Source: Roseburia faecis
GTDB lineage: Bacteria; Bacillota; Clostridia; Lachnospirales; Lachnospiraceae
NCBI RefSeq assembly: GCF_001406815.1
Contig: NZ_CVRR01000048.1
Span: 62,001-126,000 of the forward strand
DNA length: 64,000 nt
Reading direction: 5' to 3'
Shown here: positions 13,932-23,889 of the stretch, in pieces
Layout of the letters: each line of letters begins with the position of its first letter
How positions within the stretch are numbered: the stretch's first letter is position 1
Notes under the pieces: generated by a model
The model's database searches: none
Told to the model about the DNA's origin: nothing
The model's input: the letters and a program-made list of their open reading frames with translations, nothing else
Translations under genes and position numbers: made by a program

Positions 13932-14990
13932 ATGGTAAAGGTAGGAATTATCGGAGCGACCGGTTATGCAGGAGCAGAACTGGTGCGTATTTTATTGAAT
14001 CATAAAGAGGCACAGATCGAATGGTTTGGATCAAGAAGCTATATCGATGAAAATTATGCAGATATTTACAGAAACTTTTTTGAACTTATCGATGCAGACT
14101 GTCTGGGTGATAACATGGATGAGCTTGCTTCCCGCGTGGATGTGATTTTCACGGCAACACCACAGGGATTTCTGGCAGGTGTGCTGAATGAGGATATTTT
14201 AAATAAGGTAAAGATCATTGATCTGAGTGCGGATTTTCGAATCAAAGATGTTGCTACCTATGAAAAATGGTATAAGATTGAGCATAAAAGCCCACAGTTT
14301 ATTAAGGAAGCCGTTTACGGACTCTGTGAGATTAACCGTGATAAGGTGACCACCCAGACCCGTCTGATTGCAAATCCGGGATGTTATACGACCTGTTCCA
14401 TTCTGACAGCATATCCGCTGGTAAAAGAGGGACTGATTGATCCGGATACATTGATTATTGATGCAAAATCCGGTACTTCCGGAGCGGGACGTGGGGCAAA
14501 GACACCGAACCTGTTCTGCGAAGTGAACGAGAGCATGAAAGCATACGGTGTGACAACACACAGACATACACCGGAGATTGAGGAGCAGCTCGGCTATGCG
14601 GCAGGAAAAGAGATTACCGTGAATTTTACACCGCATCTGGTTCCGATGAACCGCGGAATTCTTGCGACAGAGTATGCAACCCTGATCAAAAAGCCGGATG
14701 GTACCTATCCTTCCTATGAGGAACTGAAGGCTGCTTACGATAAATATTATGCAAAGGAACGTTTCGTGCGTGTATTAAAGAAAGGTGTCTGCCCGGAGAC
14801 CAAGTGGGTAGAGGGCAGCAATTACGTGGACGTAAACTTTGTCATTGATGAGCGTACCGGCAGAGTTGTGATGATGGGTGCACTGGACAATCTGGTCAAG
14901 GGTGCAGCCGGACAGGCCGTACAGAACATGAATCTGCTGTTCGGATTTGATGAGGCAGAAGGACTTTCCATGGTTCCGATGTTTCCATAA
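13932..14990 (+). CDS. argC: N-acetyl-gamma-glutamyl-phosphate reductase
   Basis: 352 residues, the long form. It reduces N-acetylglutamyl phosphate to the semialdehyde using NADPH. GATGYAGAELVRIL at the N-terminus is the cofactor loop, and IANPGCYTT carries the catalytic cysteine. HRHTPEIEEQLG and PHLVPMNRGI also fit the family. First gene of the argC-GNAT-argB-argD cluster. Confidence 0.97.
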   Translation: MVKVGIIGATGYAGAELVRILLNHKEAQIEWFGSRSYIDENYADIYRNFFELIDADCLGDNMDELASRVDVIFTATPQGFLAGVLNEDILNKVKIIDLSADFRIKDVATYEKWYKIEHKSPQFIKEAVYGLCEINRDKVTTQTRLIANPGCYTTCSILTAYPLVKEGLIDPDTLIIDAKSGTSGAGRGAKTPNLFCEVNESMKAYGVTTHRHTPEIEEQLGYAAGKEITVNFTPHLVPMNRGILATEYATLIKKPDGTYPSYEELKAAYDKYYAKERFVRVLKKGVCPETKWVEGSNYVDVNFVIDERTGRVVMMGALDNLVKGAAGQAVQNMNLLFGFDEAEGLSMVPMFP

Positions 14991-15021
14991 TGAAAGGCAT
15001 CTGTTTGATGCATTTCCTACG

Positions 15022-15060
15022 CTCATTGTTTCCGCGTAAGCGGAACTTTCATACAATGAG
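15022..15060 (+). other. Stem-loop in the argC-GNAT spacer
   Basis: Outer arms CTCATTGT/ACAATGAG enclose an inner perfect hairpin TTCCGC-GTAA-GCGGAA (15030-15045). No T-run follows, so it is more likely an RNA-processing or stability element, or an attenuation site, than a terminator. It ends 19 bases before the GNAT start codon. Confidence 0.6.
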
Positions 15061-15079
15061 CTCTATAATGAGGTGAATA

Positions 15080-15538
15080 ATGAGTAAAGAATATACAATC
15101 CGTGTGATGACGCTGGAAGATTATGATGAGGTGTATGCGTTGTGGATGGGCATCCACGGTTTTGGAATCCGTTCCATCGATGATTCCAAAGAAGGAGTGG
15201 AGCGGTTTTTAAAAAGAAATCCGACCACGAGTATGGTAGCGGTAGCAGATGGAAAGATCGTGGGAGCCATTCTCTGCGGACATGACGGGAGACGCGGATG
15301 TCTGTATCATGTCTGTGTGCATGAAGATTACCGGAAGAACGGAATCGGAAAAGCCATGGCAGTCGCATGTATGCGCGCCCTGCAGAAAGAAAAAATCAAC
15401 AAGGTCAGCCTGATCGCATTTAAGAGCAATGAGCTGGGAAATCATTTCTGGAAAGATGCCGGCTGGTGTTTCCGGGAAGACTTAAACTATTACGATTTTA
15501 CATTGAACGAAGCAAATATTACGAGATTTAATCAGTAA
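15080..15538 (+). CDS. GNAT-family N-acetyltransferase inside the arginine operon
   Basis: A 152-residue single-domain GNAT. The acetyl-CoA pyrophosphate loop is [14 protein letters not shown] (R/Q-x-x-G-x-G/A pattern), preceded by the beta-4 segment [17 protein letters not shown] resembles the YpeA-like group. It lies between argC and argB, 10 bases before argB, where other clusters often carry argJ, which is absent here. It may supply N-acetylglutamate as a short synthase, but this is inference; a different acceptor such as another small metabolite is possible. Confidence 0.88.
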
Positions 15539-15548
15539 GGAGAATGTT

Positions 15549-16442
15549 ATGAGTGAGAATTTAAACGCATTGGAAAAAGCACAGGTGCTGATTGAGGCAT
15601 TGCCTTATATCCAGCGTTTTAACCGCAAGATTATCGTTGTAAAATACGGTGGATCAGCGATGGTAGATGAGAAACTGAAAAAACAGGTCATCCAGGATGT
15701 CACCCTGTTAAAGCTGGTTGGATTCAAACCGATCATTGTGCATGGCGGTGGCAAGGAGATCAGCAAATGGGTTGCCAAAGCAGGAATGGAACCGGAATTT
15801 ATCAATGGACTGCGTAAGACGGATGCGCCTACCATGGAGATTGCAGAGATGGTGTTAAACCGTGTCAATAAATCACTTGTATCCATGGTGCAGGAACTTG
15901 GGGTGCAGGCGGTCGGCATCAGTGGAAAAGACGGTGGTCTGTTAAAGGTGGAAAAGAAATTGTCGGATGGTCAGGACATCGGATATGTAGGAGAAGTAAA
16001 GGAAGTGAATCCAAAGATTCTGTATGATCTGCTGGAGAAAGATTTCCTTCCGATTATCTGCCCGATCGGTCTTGATGACAATTATGATACATATAATATC
16101 AATGCGGATGATGCGGCATGTGCGATTGCCCGTGCGGTTTCCGCAGAGAAACTGGCATTCTTAACCAATATCGAGGGAGTATACAAAGATCCGGAAGATC
16201 CGTCCACTCTGATTTCCGAACTTACGGTTTCCGATGCAAGAAAACTGATTACAGACGGATATATCGGCGGCGGTATGCTTCCGAAGCTGAATAACTGCAT
16301 TGACGCTATTGAAAACGGAGTATCCCGTGTGCATATTCTCGATGGAAGAATCGCACATTGTCTGCTTTTGGAAATCTTCACCAATCGCGGAATCGGTACT
16401 GCAATTTTGGGTGATGAAGAACATCATTTTTACAATGAATAA
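15549..16442 (+). CDS. argB: Acetylglutamate kinase
   Basis: 297 residues of the amino-acid kinase fold. VVKYGGSAM at the N-terminus binds ATP phosphates, [11 protein letters not shown] binds the substrate, and [12 protein letters not shown] and [13 protein letters not shown] are standard ArgB segments. It phosphorylates N-acetylglutamate. An N-terminal helix (residues 1-24) precedes the kinase core, as in arginine-inhibited hexameric forms, so feedback control is likely but not proven. Ribosome site AAGGAG 5 bases before the ATG. Confidence 0.97.
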
Positions 16443-17672: not shown

Positions 17673-17701
17673 TTGTAAAAGTAACAAAAAATCGTTAAAA
17701 T
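17673..17701 (+). promoter_or_regulatory. Promoter ahead of the comEA-like operon
   Basis: TTGTAA (17673-17678), 17-base spacer, TAAAAT (17696-17701); 45 bases before the start codon and 8 bases after the argD stop. Confidence 0.55.
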
Positions 17702-17746: not shown

Positions 17747-18346
17747 ATGAAAAAACATTGGATAAAAAAGTGCTGTATGATTCTGACATGCCTGTATCTG
17801 ACGGGATGTGGCAGGGAGGAAGTGCCATATCTGGATACCACTCAGACACAGGAGCAGACGGTGGAAACGGAACGAACGGAACAAAAAGAAACATTAAAAT
17901 CCGACCAGACGGTACAGGTATATGTATGCGGGGAGGTAGCAGCTCCCGGTGTCTATCAGCTGAAAGACGGTATGCGCATCTGCGATGCGGTGGAGGCGGC
18001 AGGAGGACTGACCAAAGCTGCCAGCCGCGAATACTGGAATCTTGCTGAGAAGCTTTCGGACGGACAGATGATTTATTTTCCCACAGAGGAAGAGGCAAGG
18101 GAGAGGAAAGCATCGGCAGAGGCAGCCGGTGCCACTGTGGAAGAATCGGATGGGCGGATTGATATCAATACGGCGGATGCCACGCAGCTTGTGACCATTC
18201 CGGGAATCGGAGAGACACGGGCGGCGGCAATTCTTGCATACCGGGAGAAAAACGGGCCGTTTGCGAAAGTCGAAGATATCATGCAGGTATCCGGAATCAA
18301 AAGCGCACTTTTTGAGAAAATGAAAGATTATATAACGATTCGTTGA
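17747..18346 (+). CDS. comEA: ComEA-family DNA-binding lipoprotein (SLBB plus helix-hairpin-helix)
   Basis: 199 residues from the ATG at 17747, which follows AAAGGGAGAAATGAG. The N-terminus is a lipoprotein signal ending LTG-Cys21. An SLBB domain (about 60-115, VYVCGEVAAPGVYQL) is followed by a low-complexity linker and a C-terminal (HhH)2 domain (about 138-198: INTADATQLVTIPGIG and FAKVEDIMQVSGIK). ComEA binds incoming double-stranded DNA at the outer membrane face during transformation. Anchoring by lipid rather than a transmembrane helix is a variation. comEC lies 3.1 kb downstream on the same strand. Confidence 0.92.
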   Translation: MKKHWIKKCCMILTCLYLTGCGREEVPYLDTTQTQEQTVETERTEQKETLKSDQTVQVYVCGEVAAPGVYQLKDGMRICDAVEAAGGLTKAASREYWNLAEKLSDGQMIYFPTEEEARERKASAEAAGATVEESDGRIDINTADATQLVTIPGIGETRAAAILAYREKNGPFAKVEDIMQVSGIKSALFEKMKDYITIR

Positions 18347-18354
18347 GGTGTAAT

Positions 18355-19047
18355 ATGGCAAAGAAAGTTCTCGTAGTAGATGATGAGAAATTAATCGTAA
18401 AAGGAATCCGGTTCAGTCTTGAACAGGACGGGATGGAAGTGGATTGTGCATACGATGGAGAAGAAGCGCTGAATATGGCGAAAGCAAATGAGTATGATAT
18501 GATCCTTTTGGACATCATGCTTCCGAAGATGGACGGATTCGAAGTATGTCAGGCGATTCGTGAATTTTCTGATATGCCGATTGTTATGCTGACAGCGAAG
18601 GGCGACGATATGGATAAGATTCTGGGACTTGATTATGGTGCCGATGACTATATCACAAAGCCGTTTAATATTCTTGAGGTGAAAGCGCGTATCAAAGCGA
18701 TCATGCGTCGTACCGCAGGACCGAGAGAAAAGAAAGAAGTTTCTTCGATTGTGGAGAAAGGGGATCTGCGTCTGGACTGTGACAGCAGACGGCTGTTTAT
18801 TTCAGGCAGGGAAGTAAACCTTACCGCAAAAGAATTTGATTTGCTGGAACTTCTTGTGAAAAATGAAAATAAAGTATACAGCAGGGAAAATCTGCTCGGA
18901 CTGGTCTGGGGAAAAGATTATCCGGGAGACGTGCGTACAGTGGATGTGCATGTACGTCGTCTGCGTGAAAAGATCGAAACCAACCCAAGTGAACCGAAAT
19001 ACGTGCACACAAAATGGGGTGTGGGATATTATTATTACCAGAAATAG
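18355..19047 (+). CDS. Two-component response regulator, OmpR/PhoB family
   Basis: 230 residues from the ATG at 18355 (ribosome site GAGGTG). Receiver domain with the acidic pocket VVDDE, phospho-acceptor Asp53 in LLDIMLPKMDG, Thr80 and Lys102 in ITKPF. The C-terminal winged helix (LTAKEFDLLELLVKN; VDVHVRRLREKIE) binds DNA. It starts 8 bases after the comEA-like stop and precedes its kinase by 24 bases. Target genes are not evident; autoregulation of this operon is possible. Confidence 0.95.
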   Translation: MAKKVLVVDDEKLIVKGIRFSLEQDGMEVDCAYDGEEALNMAKANEYDMILLDIMLPKMDGFEVCQAIREFSDMPIVMLTAKGDDMDKILGLDYGADDYITKPFNILEVKARIKAIMRRTAGPREKKEVSSIVEKGDLRLDCDSRRLFISGREVNLTAKEFDLLELLVKNENKVYSRENLLGLVWGKDYPGDVRTVDVHVRRLREKIETNPSEPKYVHTKWGVGYYYYQK

Positions 19048-19071
19048 ACGAGAAGGCAGAAAGGTTTTTCC

Positions 19072-20523
19072 ATGCAGAAGAGTAAACAGTTTCTTCAGTT
19101 CTTAAAAAGTTTAAAATTTCGGTTGATTCTTTTGATCGTTGTGATTGCGGTCGTACCGAGTCTGATTCTTTCGGCAGCAGTTTTAAAATATTACGAAAAG
19201 CGTGCCGTTTCTATCCGGGAAAGTGAAATCTTAAGCCAGGCAAAAATTCTGGCAAATCAGATAGCGACAAGTGAATATATGAAGCTGGGGGCGGATGTAT
19301 CGTCCAGCAATATTCAGACACAGATTGATATGCTCACGACCATCTATGATGGTCGTGTCATTGTTGTGGATGACAACTGCAAAGTTTATTATGACACGTA
19401 TAATCTCGATGACCATAAGCTGATCATTGCAGAGGAGGTCATGCGCAGTTTCAAGGGCGAGGATATTGTGCATTATGATTCGGAGAACCATTACATTGAG
19501 ATGACGATCCCGATCAGCGATCCTGATGATAAAAGTGAAACGGTGATCGGAGTTATGCTGATCAGTGTTTCTACGGACAATATTGTGATCAACCAGTCAT
19601 ATATGCGACAGGTGGCGGTGATCGTTATGGTCATGGTCGGAATTGCAATTGTGTTTTTTGCAATCCTTCTGCTTTTGTATTTCCTGAAGCCGTTGCAGAA
19701 GATCGAAGAGGGAATCGCTGCAATCAAAAACGGATACGGAGAGTACAATCTTCAGGTCAATGATTACACGGAGACGGCGGGAATCTGTGAGAAGATCAAT
19801 CAGATGCTTGGCCGGATTAAAGTCATGGATGATTCCCGGCAGGAGTTTGTATCGAATGTGTCACATGAATTAAAGACACCGCTGACATCCATGAAGGTGC
19901 TGGCGGATTCGATCAATAGCATGCCGGATGCGCCGAAGGAACTGTATCAGGAATTTATGGAAGATATCACCAACGAGATTGAGCGTGAGACAAAGATCAT
20001 CAACGATCTGCTTTCTCTGGTGAAGATGGATAAGTCTGCAGCAGGGCTGAATGTATCTTCCGTCAATATCAATGAACTTTTAGAGCAGATTTTAAAACGT
20101 CTGCAGCCGATTGCGGATAAGCAGAAAGTGGAACTTGTCCTTGAGAGTTTCCGCCCGGTTACCGCAGAAGTGGATGAGGTAAAAATCACGCTTGCGATCA
20201 CAAATCTTGTGGAGAATGCAATCAAATATAACCGGAATGACGGAGAGGGCTGGGTACACGTATCGCTGAATGCGGATCACCAGTATTTCTACCTGAAAGT
20301 AGAAGATTCCGGAATCGGTATTCCGGAGGAGTCTCTGGATCATATTTACGAACGATTTTACCGGGTGGATAAATCCCATTCCCGTGAGATCGGAGGAACC
20401 GGACTGGGACTTGCGATTACAAGAAATTCCATACTGATGCATCGCGGCGCAATTAAAGTACATTCTGTGATGGGCGAGGGAACAACCTTTGATGTTCGTA
20501 TTCCGCTCAACTATATTGCATAG
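19072..20523 (+). CDS. Sensor histidine kinase with extracellular domain and HAMP
   Basis: 483 residues. TM1 at about 15-38, an extracellular sensor domain of about 135 residues, TM2 at about 178-203, HAMP, then HisKA with FVSNVSHELKTPLTS (His265) and HATPase_c with NLVENAIKYN, DSGIGIP and GGTGLGLAI. All catalytic boxes are intact. The layout resembles PhoR/WalK/MtrB kinases. The next gene encodes a GerMN lipoprotein 10 bases on, giving a kinase plus outer-surface partner arrangement. Confidence 0.95.
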   Translation: MQKSKQFLQFLKSLKFRLILLIVVIAVVPSLILSAAVLKYYEKRAVSIRESEILSQAKILANQIATSEYMKLGADVSSSNIQTQIDMLTTIYDGRVIVVDDNCKVYYDTYNLDDHKLIIAEEVMRSFKGEDIVHYDSENHYIEMTIPISDPDDKSETVIGVMLISVSTDNIVINQSYMRQVAVIVMVMVGIAIVFFAILLLLYFLKPLQKIEEGIAAIKNGYGEYNLQVNDYTETAGICEKINQMLGRIKVMDDSRQEFVSNVSHELKTPLTSMKVLADSINSMPDAPKELYQEFMEDITNEIERETKIINDLLSLVKMDKSAAGLNVSSVNINELLEQILKRLQPIADKQKVELVLESFRPVTAEVDEVKITLAITNLVENAIKYNRNDGEGWVHVSLNADHQYFYLKVEDSGIGIPEESLDHIYERFYRVDKSHSREIGGTGLGLAITRNSILMHRGAIKVHSVMGEGTTFDVRIPLNYIA

Positions 20524-20533
20524 GAGGAAAAAG

Positions 20534-21475
20534 ATGAGAAAAAAAATAATTTCAATCATACTCCTTGTGGCAATGGTACTCACAATGGCTGCCGGATGTG
20601 GAAAAAAAGAAGATAAAAAAGACTATTTTGTATTTTATGTAAACAATGAGCTGACAAAGGTTGTTGCGAAAAAGATTACCCTGCAGCATACTTCATCCGG
20701 CAAAGCACAGGTGAAGGAACTGCTCAAAGATCTGCAGACACAGCCGGAGGATGCAACGCTTCGAAGAACCATTCCACGCAAAGTAAAAATCCAGAATATA
20801 GATCTGATCTCTTATCAGATTACGGTGGATTTCAGCAAGGAATATTACGATATGAAACCGACGGAAGAGATTCTGACCAGGGCTGCAATTGCAAAGACAC
20901 TGTTGCAGCTGAGCCAGTATGTGACCTTTACTGTGGATGGAAAACCACTTGTGGATGCCTCGGGAGCAAATGTAGGTGCCATGAATCTGGACAGTTTTGT
21001 GGAAAATCCGGGAGAACAGATCAATTCCAGCCAGAAAGCAACACTGAAACTTTATTTTTCAAATAAGGCGGGTACCAGACTGGTTCCGGAAACCAGAGAG
21101 GTACATTACAGTTCCAACATTTCACTGGAAAAACTGGTGATGGAACAGCTGATTGAGGGACCAAGAAAAAGCGGACTCCTGGCAACGATTCCTTCGGAGA
21201 CGAAACTGATTACGATCACAGTGGTGGATGGGGTCTGCTATGTCAATCTGGATGAAATGTTTTTGAATCAGAATCAGGAAATCTCAGAACCTGTTGTTTT
21301 ATATTCTATCGTGGATTCCCTGACGGAACTGACGGGAATCGATAAAGTACAGATTTCCATCAACGGAGATACCAGTGGCAAATGCCGTTACACGTATAAA
21401 CTATCAAAGATGTACAAGGCAGATGACCGTCTGGTCACAAAAGAAAGCGATGAGAAAGTAGAATCTACGGAATAG
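20534..21475 (+). CDS. GerMN-domain lipoprotein (two GerMN repeats)
   Basis: 313 residues from the ATG at 20534, 8 bases after AGGAGG. Lipoprotein signal with MAAG-Cys22. Two GerMN domains follow, at about 32-150 and 165-290; the second holds the well-conserved TLKLYFSNKAG and RTGLL-like LIEGPRKSGLLATIPSETK segment. GerMN domains occur in spore GerM and in actinobacterial LpqB, the lipoprotein partner of the MtrB kinase. Position right after a kinase suggests it modulates that kinase (inference). Confidence 0.9.
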   Translation: MRKKIISIILLVAMVLTMAAGCGKKEDKKDYFVFYVNNELTKVVAKKITLQHTSSGKAQVKELLKDLQTQPEDATLRRTIPRKVKIQNIDLISYQITVDFSKEYYDMKPTEEILTRAAIAKTLLQLSQYVTFTVDGKPLVDASGANVGAMNLDSFVENPGEQINSSQKATLKLYFSNKAGTRLVPETREVHYSSNISLEKLVMEQLIEGPRKSGLLATIPSETKLITITVVDGVCYVNLDEMFLNQNQEISEPVVLYSIVDSLTELTGIDKVQISINGDTSGKCRYTYKLSKMYKADDRLVTKESDEKVESTE

Positions 21476-21486
21476 GAAAAGAAAGC

Positions 21487-23889
21487 GTGAGGAAAAGACC
21501 ATTTCTTTTGCTTGCCACAGAGTTTCTGCTGGGGATTGTGTGTGTCAGAGAGCAGCTGCCGGCATGGGGTGTGCTGGCAGTTCTGTTACTGGTATATACC
21601 ACTCCATGGAAGGAACGGGGGATGCGGAAAGTTCTGTTTGCGGCAGGACTTCCCGGTATGTTTCTTTTGGGGATGCTGCAGATGCAGCGACAGATCGATT
21701 TCAGGCAGCAGTACCTGCAGAAACTCACAGATGGCCAGGAGGTTCGCCTGGCGGGAAAGATTGATCGGATAGAACCGAAAACCAGATGCGTTTATTACTA
21801 TTTAAAAGATTGCACGGTGGAAGCAGAATCGCAGACACTGCCATGCAATGATGTAATCGCATATGTTTCTTCTGCCAGCCATTCGGCTGGACAAATCCTG
21901 AATATTGAGGGTACAATTTCATTATTTACAGAAGCATCCAATGAAGGGATGTTTGATGCCCGGCAGTTTTACCAGAGTCAGAAAATTGATTTCGGCATAT
22001 GGGTCACAAAGATCAGCCGGGTCTATGGAAAACCGGATCGTTACCGGTGCGCACTACAGAATATGAAAAAGCGTGCAAATGACGTGATCCGGTATTCTAT
22101 CCGGGACGATGGCGTGCTTTCTGCGATGCTGTTAGGGGAAAAGGGGGATCTGGATGCAGAGATAAAATCTTTGTATCAGAGAGCGGGGATCGCCCATGTG
22201 CTTGCTATTTCCGGACTTCATATTTCCCTTCTGGGGATGGGACTGTACCGCCTGCTGCGGAAACGACTGCATACCCAGTATGTGACAGCAGCGCTGGCAA
22301 CGACCGTTTTTTTGATTTCCTATGCGGTTTTAAGCGGAAACGGGGTATCTACACAGCGGGCGGTGGGCATGTGTCTGATTTATTTGTTTGCGGATGTGAC
22401 AGGATATGCCTATGACATGTTAAATGCGCTTGGAATTGTTGTGCTCGTACTTTTGTGGGAAAATCCGTTTCTGCTATCGTATTCCGGATTTGTGTTTTCC
22501 GTGATGGCGGTGATTGCCATCGGAGTGGGAGCCAATGTACTGCTGGAATGGGAACATTCATGGAAACGCAGACAGCAGGCCGGAGAGGAAAACATCAAAA
22601 AAACATTTTTCTCAAGACAAAAAGAAGGAATTCTGGTAAGTTTTGCAATCCAGTTGTTTACCATCCCGCTGGTCGCATATTCTTATTATGAAATTCCCGT
22701 GTACGCGATGCTGATAAACCTGTTTGTACTTGCGGTGGTCAACGGATTACTGGGGCTTACTGTGCTTGGGGTGATTGTGGGGATGGTGTTTTTGCCTGCG
22801 GGGAGTGTTCTGTTTGCGCCCTGTGGCTGGATGCTCGACAGTTACCGGTTTCTGTGTGAGGTTTCCTTAAAGATTCCGGGTGCGCAGAGGATCACAGGGA
22901 AACCTGCGCATATGCGGATCTTTTGGTATTACCTGGGGCTTGGAGTGTTTCTTCTGGCGATCTATGCCTGTGCACGCAGAAATGAAAAGCACAAAGACGG
23001 CAGGGAAACGGCAGATCTGTGTGTAAGCCGAAGAAAGAAACGACTGCAGGGCATAGTTTTTTCCTGTTTTATTGCGTTTCTTCTGCTTTTTCTTCTTTTT
23101 CCACAGAAGAAATCGTTTGAGATTGATTTCCTTGATGTGGGACAGGGAGACGGTATTTATCTGTGCACGGGCGGCGGGACTTCCATGTTTATTGATGGTG
23201 GGAGCACCGATGTGAAACAGGTGGGAAAGTACCGGATTCTGCCGTTTTTAAAGGCAAAAGGAGTGTCAGAGATTTCTTACTGGTTTGTCAGTCATACGGA
23301 TACCGATCATGTGTCCGGTCTTAAGGAGGTTCTTGTGTCCGGATACCGTGTGGAGTATCTGGTGTTTGCAAAAGCAGTGGAAAAAGAAGCAAAGACAAAA
23401 GAGCTGGCAGAACTGGCCCGCAGCCATGGAACGAAAGTGCTTTATATGCAGGCGGGGGATACGGTAAGAAGCAAACGTGCAGCCATGCGCTGTCTGTATC
23501 CCAAAGCTTCGGATAAAGCGGAGGATGTCAATGATCTGTGTCTGGTACTGCAATTTGAAGAGGGGGATATCCGCGCCCTGTTTGGTGGAGATATCTCCAC
23601 AGATGTGGAAGAGCAGCTGAGCCGCCGCGAAAAATGGGATAAGGTTTTGGTTTTTAAGGCGGATCATCATGGATCGCGCTATGCGAACGCAGAAGCGTTA
23701 TTGAAGTGTATCCGGCCGGAAATTACGGTTGCTTCAGCCGGAAAGGATAATCGTTACGGACATCCGAGCCCGGATGCCGTACAAAGGATCAAAGAGAGCG
23801 GCAGCAGATTTTTTTGCACCATCGAAGGCGGAAGGATACGGGTGCGCGTCATCGAAAATAAGCTGGTGTGTGAAACTTATGTGAAATAG
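21487..23889 (+). CDS. comEC: ComEC/Rec2 DNA-uptake channel
   Basis: 800 residues starting at GTG 21487 (ribosome site GGAAAAGAAAG is weak). Three regions are seen: N-terminal DUF4131/OB-like domain after two hydrophobic helices (to about 200), the Competence membrane domain with AISGLHISLLGMGLY and about 8 helices (about 215-535), and a C-terminal metallo-beta-lactamase domain with LDVGQGDGIYL, SHTDTDHVSGL and ADHHGSRYAN. It forms the inner-membrane channel for single-stranded DNA during transformation. It is full-length with intact metal motifs. Confidence 0.95.
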   Translation: MRKRPFLLLATEFLLGIVCVREQLPAWGVLAVLLLVYTTPWKERGMRKVLFAAGLPGMFLLGMLQMQRQIDFRQQYLQKLTDGQEVRLAGKIDRIEPKTRCVYYYLKDCTVEAESQTLPCNDVIAYVSSASHSAGQILNIEGTISLFTEASNEGMFDARQFYQSQKIDFGIWVTKISRVYGKPDRYRCALQNMKKRANDVIRYSIRDDGVLSAMLLGEKGDLDAEIKSLYQRAGIAHVLAISGLHISLLGMGLYRLLRKRLHTQYVTAALATTVFLISYAVLSGNGVSTQRAVGMCLIYLFADVTGYAYDMLNALGIVVLVLLWENPFLLSYSGFVFSVMAVIAIGVGANVLLEWEHSWKRRQQAGEENIKKTFFSRQKEGILVSFAIQLFTIPLVAYSYYEIPVYAMLINLFVLAVVNGLLGLTVLGVIVGMVFLPAGSVLFAPCGWMLDSYRFLCEVSLKIPGAQRITGKPAHMRIFWYYLGLGVFLLAIYACARRNEKHKDGRETADLCVSRRKKRLQGIVFSCFIAFLLLFLLFPQKKSFEIDFLDVGQGDGIYLCTGGGTSMFIDGGSTDVKQVGKYRILPFLKAKGVSEISYWFVSHTDTDHVSGLKEVLVSGYRVEYLVFAKAVEKEAKTKELAELARSHGTKVLYMQAGDTVRSKRAAMRCLYPKASDKAEDVNDLCLVLQFEEGDIRALFGGDISTDVEEQLSRREKWDKVLVFKADHHGSRYANAEALLKCIRPEITVASAGKDNRYGHPSPDAVQRIKESGSRFFCTIEGGRIRVRVIENKLVCETYVK

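Follow-up and report, generated by a model that had tools for sequence, protein, structure and literature searches.

A GerMN lipoprotein gene beside a histidine kinase gene in Roseburia faecis and other Lachnospiraceae: a probable three-component sensing system

Why does the gene for a lipoprotein with two GerMN domains lie directly behind a histidine kinase gene, between two genes for DNA uptake? The question is raised by a stretch of 64,000 nucleotides from Roseburia faecis, which we will call the window; it lies on a contig (C48) of a 3.33-Mb draft assembly. As judged from open reading frames and sequence, five genes follow each other on its + strand: comEA, a response regulator (RR) of the OmpR type, a histidine kinase (HK), the tandem-GerMN lipoprotein and comEC, with gaps of 8, 24, 10 and 11 bases. 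An earlier reading of the letters alone, the sequence-only reading, had given exactly this order and spacing. It had also placed the block in a Firmicute, correctly so, as the nearest named relatives belong to Agathobacter/Roseburia, in the Lachnospiraceae. For GerMN domains the main known examples are GerM and LpqB. We consider it probable, at about 70%, that the three central genes encode a three-component envelope-sensing system, in which the GerMN lipoprotein works outside the membrane as partner of the Cache-like sensor of the kinase.

The central genes and their conservation

We will start with the three central genes. The RR (18355..19047, + strand, ATG start) has Response_reg and Trans_reg_C domains (Pfam) and falls into a clade that adjoins WalR. 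The HK (19072..20523, +) is composed of a transmembrane (TM) helix, an extracytoplasmic Cache-like domain, a second TM helix, HisKA and HATPase_c. Its sensor domain, residues 36–178 (19177..19605, +), is the predicted partner surface for GerMN, as suggested by a model, by covariation and by its absence in genome G050. A fold look-up with the full-length HK was filled by kinase cores, so that it does not address the fold of the sensor. The lipoprotein (20534..21475, +) has two PF10646 domains (Pfam, 1.9e-42), the second at about residues 165–300, and a lipobox whose Cys22 is invariant in both a 19-row and a 57-row alignment. It is the sole PF10646 gene found in the assembly. In relatives, three HK-linked GerMN proteins (L170, L171, L188) have no standard lipobox and are apparently anchored by a TM helix, as read by eye from their N-termini; from these cases lipid anchoring may perhaps be dispensable.

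The family was sampled with one genome per genus, 120 Lachnospiraceae genera in total, and PF10646 has a match in 117 of them. The surroundings were read in the 114 genomes with a clear GerMN frame; the genome of the window is not counted among them, nor are G069 and G100, whose matches are weak. In 113 of these 114 an HK is found upstream of GerMN on the same strand, within 400 bases. For the individual junctions we have counted only loci with enough contig to be evaluable. The sequence-only reading would have been contradicted if relatives often had their GerMN gene at a distance from the kinase; in the family this junction is intact in 111/112 loci, a fixed lipoprotein–kinase pair such as is expected of three-component systems with an accessory lipoprotein. 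The junction of comEA with the RR is intact in 90/91 loci (in the exception, L077, the comEA match is just below the score limit used), that of GerMN with comEC in 105/110 and that of the RR with the HK in 92/109. In a set of named loci, which partly overlaps the family sample, the HK is upstream of GerMN in 80 out of 80, some of them cut by contig ends. The order of the block is far beyond chance, because it recurs across the family.

In a group of 15 family genomes HK-GerMN has no RR at its side; upstream lies a gene which we take to be DegV-like, or another one. All 15 keep the RR elsewhere, directly beside comEA and with 66–78% identity; the next RR paralogue, where listed, has 43–49%. The block thus breaks exactly between RR and HK: the HK stays with GerMN and the RR with comEA. 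The same junction is disturbed in three more loci: L102 has an inversion there, L112 an insertion and L073 a wide gap.

At the level of class Clostridia we have read the loci of the 50 best tandem-GerMN matches, eight of them from Lachnospiraceae. An HK lies directly upstream in 42 of the 50. Among the loci read, comEC after the block is confined to the same taxonomic order, while HK-GerMN without comEC is found across the class, and the arrangement comEA-RR-HK-GerMN occurs outside the order in L336, L343, L348 and L352. Other arrangements are also present: in L335 and L347 a tandem GerMN comes directly after comEA, with neither RR nor HK in between, and in L339 and L341 RR-HK has two GerMN genes behind it, of which the latter is a longer frame (474 residues).

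Joint loss and covariation of the kinase sensor and GerMN

In genome G050 the locus is reduced to comEA-RR-HK-comEC, with GerMN absent. Its HK is a frame of 356 residues with only 29 residues between the centres of the TM helices, too short for a sensor domain. The median distance is 161 among those of the 112 family HKs with two helices called, in a hydropathy scan which misjudged some long frames (distances of 11). Among 75 genomes with this HK, G050 included, 72 have HK frames of 449–533 residues and two are cut by contig ends; this survey covers frame lengths. Contig-cut frames aside, the sole kinase too short for a sensor sits in a genome lacking GerMN. Neither the RR orthologue nor GerMN is present in two further genomes, G030 and G075.

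Covariation was studied at two levels. For evolutionary distances we used partial correlations (r), with the RR and kinase distances as controls. The sensor and the second GerMN domain (GerMN2) give r = 0.36 (n = 87; 0/2000 permutations), the sensor and ComEC 0.19 (11/2000), and the sensor and the first domain (GerMN1) 0.12 (77/2000), so that the second domain has the clearer signal with the sensor. The value for GerMN1 and GerMN2 is 0.09, below that of sensor and GerMN2. In subsets, sensor-ComEC gives 0.25 (n = 83) and 0.10 (n = 56), sensor-ComEA 0.17, and sensor-GerMN2 0.37 and 0.31.

For individual alignment columns we used mutual information with average product correction (APC) and counted the share of column pairs above 3 standard deviations. 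It is 1.25% (N = 184) and 1.00% (N = 162) for sensor-GerMN2, and 0.83% and 0.76% for sensor-GerMN1 in the same two samples. The controls are lower: 0.27–0.34% for sensor-ComEC (0.34% at N = 162) and 0.23% for sensor-ComEA. At N = 162 the sensor and the rest of the kinase, within the HK itself, reach 0.92%, and GerMN1-GerMN2 0.59%. Sensor-GerMN2 pairs are therefore about as frequent as sensor-kinase pairs inside one protein, and sensor-GerMN covariation exceeds the controls with comEC and comEA by a factor of two to five. A sample restricted to the family (N = 91) gives 0.78% for sensor-GerMN2, 0.32% for sensor-ComEC and 0.29% for sensor-ComEA.

Relation to WalRK, MtrAB-LpqB, GerM and QseE-QseG

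Could the block simply be WalRK, or MtrAB-LpqB, in another gene order? We consider this very improbable. The best family model for the RR is YycF/WalR (270 bits), and no other RR of the genome is as WalR-like; however the curated WalR model (NF040534) has a cut-off of 340 bits. None of the 120 family genomes reaches it, the best having 283.9 bits; this absence of WalR is defined by one model, which a very diverged WalR could escape. In a tree, 20 RRs linked to GerMN, taken from the family, from three split genomes and from other Clostridia, form one clade (support 100/100). Its join to the clade of curated WalRs is weakly supported (82/69), and the RR does not fall inside that WalR clade. A separate WalR-like RR (at least 310 bits) is present in 28 out of 34 non-family Clostridia with HK-GerMN and is lacking in six. 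No PAS domain was matched in the window's HK with Pfam and curated family models, unlike the WalR-linked kinase L411, which has one. PAS is not decisive, since it is present in WalK of B. subtilis and absent in that of C. difficile (PMC9210968). The same paper describes WalRK as found in all Firmicutes. True WalRK is rejected by the model scores, the RR tree and the coexistence with WalR. As judged from gene content, the system appears to coexist with WalR in most Clostridia tested and to stand without a recognisable WalR in Lachnospiraceae.

There are nevertheless likenesses to WalRK, including the C. difficile arrangement walA-walR-walK-truA2: the RR is the nearest WalR relative of its genome, the kinase has a Cache-like sensor, and C. 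difficile also has a PAS-free WalK in an operon which carries an accessory lipoprotein (PMC9210968). The differences are that the block is a separate lineage and that its GerMN lipoprotein lies downstream; the accessories of WalRK are the propeller lipoprotein WalA, placed upstream, or YycHI.

The comparison with MtrA-MtrB-LpqB is the one drawn by the sequence-only reading. Both have the order RR-HK-lipoprotein, and in both the lipoprotein placed after the kinase carries GerMN; the logic is likely the same by analogy: an extracytoplasmic lipoprotein which acts on the kinase. As an analogy of working it is fair; kinship is not supported. The RR has 231 bits on the MtrA model, whose cut-off is 300 and on which two canonical WalRs score 248 and 271; three other GerMN-linked RRs have 225–237. 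The HK reaches 184 bits (three relatives 192–243) against 450 for MtrB, and the lipoprotein 20 bits against 602 for LpqB. LpqB is a beta-propeller protein (PMC13068155), whereas the window's lipoprotein has two GerMN domains and no propeller was found in it. True MtrAB is thus rejected by the model scores and the RR tree, and the pairing of a GerMN lipoprotein with a kinase has likely arisen independently of MtrAB-LpqB. The most MtrA-like RR scored in this genome (264 bits) is a different one, in a second RR-HK pair on contig C5 (L148, 1492–3626), beside a gene which is presumably mutS2-like. RRs with WalR-model scores like that of this second RR occur in many Clostridia.

With GerM of B. subtilis the lipoprotein shares the tandem GerMN fold, the lipobox and lipoprotein anchoring. 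It might then be the orthologue of GerM, a sporulation protein of the mother cell, and adjoin a two-component system without belonging to it; we find this hardly credible. The sporulation factor sigma-E was surveyed with TIGR02835 (threshold E 1e-60) in the 120 family genomes and found in 82, the window's genome among them. In the 38 genomes without a match PF10646 is present in 36 and strong in 34, and all these 34 have an HK upstream within 400 bases. At least 34 of the 38 sigma-E-less genomes therefore retain the gene beside the kinase, and it is not a sporulation gene there, so that the GerM reading is rejected. Unlike GerM, the GerMN of the block lies beside a kinase, and its covariation with the kinase sensor also speaks against this reading.

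A precedent for a lipoprotein acting on a histidine kinase is found in enterobacteria, where QseG binds and activates QseE (PMC12691602). For our block such an action is proposed by analogy. No kinship of the proteins is expected, and QseG sits in the outer membrane. In a limited search of the open-licence literature we found no account of GerMN genes next to kinase genes in Firmicutes.

Neighbouring genes, rival explanations and meaning

The block begins with a comEA-like lipoprotein gene (17747..18346, +) with a lipobox-like LYLTGC, an SLBB and a helix-hairpin-helix domain (HHH_3); it is above the cut-off of TIGR00426, a ComEA repeat model, and below that of TIGR01259. It ends with comEC/Rec2, the DNA-uptake channel (21487..23889, +, GTG start, Competence and DUF4131 in Pfam), which is above the cut-off of TIGR00361. 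Before comEA there is a promoter-like element, TTGTAA-N17-TAAAAT (17673..17701, +), detected by a sequence scan and by conservation in relatives. Such hexamers, with a spacer of 16–18, are found before comEA in 36 of 162 loci from relatives, drawn from two sets with some overlap, compared with 3 of 1620 background stretches. In several relatives a second TTGTAA-like copy follows the first by 9–10 bases, possibly a regulator site. WalR-box patterns before comEA are rare (8/163, versus 1/810 in the background) and give no clear clue to a regulon. In the 15 split genomes no hexamers of the comEA type were seen before the HK, and a looser form in 2. Further upstream, the interval between argC and argB (14990–15549 of the window) has only a gene for a GNAT protein of 152 residues. 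Among 31 relatives with both genes in view, 29 have there a frame of 406–437 residues, which by size and place we take to be argJ; relative L127 has a short frame, like the window, and L142 has none.

These neighbours suggest another explanation, in which the com genes are the targets of the two-component system and the lipoprotein has a role in DNA uptake or in the envelope with no contact to the kinase; the gene order would then reflect one operon. The whole com block is conserved, comEA remains beside the RR even where the HK leaves, and the promoter-like element before comEA is conserved as well; moreover in a replicate within a narrow clade the sensor tracks ComEA as well as GerMN2. We nevertheless find it unlikely. 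Outside the order HK-GerMN is found where comEC is absent and, in many cases, comEA is not in view either, at the break of the block the HK accompanies GerMN, and at column level the sensor covaries more with GerMN than with ComEC or ComEA. It is still less probable that the two proteins belong to one pathway without contact, GerMN being an envelope assembly factor whose state is sensed indirectly by the kinase. GerM of B. subtilis is indeed an assembly factor (PMC6934232, PMC7924749), and joint loss with covariation falls short of proving contact; however column covariation at about the level found within one protein is explained more easily by a shared surface.

Several observations weigh against a direct partnership of lipoprotein and kinase. 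In G035 (L146) HK and GerMN are separated by three genes, the sole such break in the evaluable family loci, and G171 keeps RR-HK in one place and GerMN-comEC in another. A tandem GerMN without a neighbouring kinase occurs in families f20, f48 and f57 and outside the class; in a quick tree 14 of the 18 unlinked rows form one clade, together with one linked row, and in f48 and f57 GerMN may have a kinase-free role. The joint loss of GerMN and sensor is one event, and G069 has comEA-RR-HK-comEC with the sensor kept and no GerMN in the locus; its genome has a weak PF10646 match (E 7e-8), which was not located. The split genomes are related by descent and represent fewer than 15 independent events. 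As for covariation, the distance controls with comEC and comEA likewise beat most permutations, and the narrow-clade replicate (n = 68) is unspecific: sensor-GerMN2 gives 0.48, sensor-comEA 0.47 and sensor-comEC 0.30. At column level, kinase core-GerMN2 is also raised (0.70% in the mixed sample, 0.34% in the family only), and GerMN1-ComEC reaches 0.55% (N = 184), which limits the specificity. When GerMN is swapped between nearest kinase neighbours, sensor-GerMN2 merely falls from 1.00 to 0.84%. The swap removes little signal and the controls are raised; therefore deep shared history contributes to the covariation.

With these points taken into account we retain the three-component system. Its support comes from gene content, the conserved junctions, the break which parts RR from HK and leaves HK-GerMN together, one joint loss, covariation above controls and independence of sporulation. 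The unit of RR, HK and lipoprotein foreseen in the sequence-only reading holds in this sense; its link to DNA uptake does not go beyond position, since comEA and comEC are neighbours and we found nothing that ties the system to competence. The tandem-GerMN lipoprotein, tethered outside the membrane, would be the extracytoplasmic partner of the kinase, docking on the Cache-like sensor mainly through its second GerMN domain. Once docked it would set the balance between kinase and phosphatase, and the kinase would pass the signal to this RR. The latter most likely controls genes of the cell envelope, a role suggested because it is akin to WalR. By analogy the lipoprotein is most likely the outer half of the sensor, as is thought of LpqB for MtrB (PMC12338722) and as holds for QseG with QseE (PMC12691602).

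A more tentative proposal, which we consider possible and still rather doubtful, is that Lachnospiraceae lost canonical WalRK and that the GerMN-coupled paralogue became their main, perhaps essential, cell-wall regulator. It would be an independently evolved design like MtrAB-LpqB, with the GerMN pair as the kinase's input from outside. For MtrB it is an open question if a periplasmic signal acts on it, and in what way; LpqB has been put forward as a likely modulator (PMC12338722). The natural GerMN-kinase pairs present throughout the family, with split operons and one sensor-less kinase, make this question testable. A major gut family with apparently no recognisable WalR, and with a GerMN-coupled relative in its place, also has in this system a concrete candidate for the controller of wall growth.

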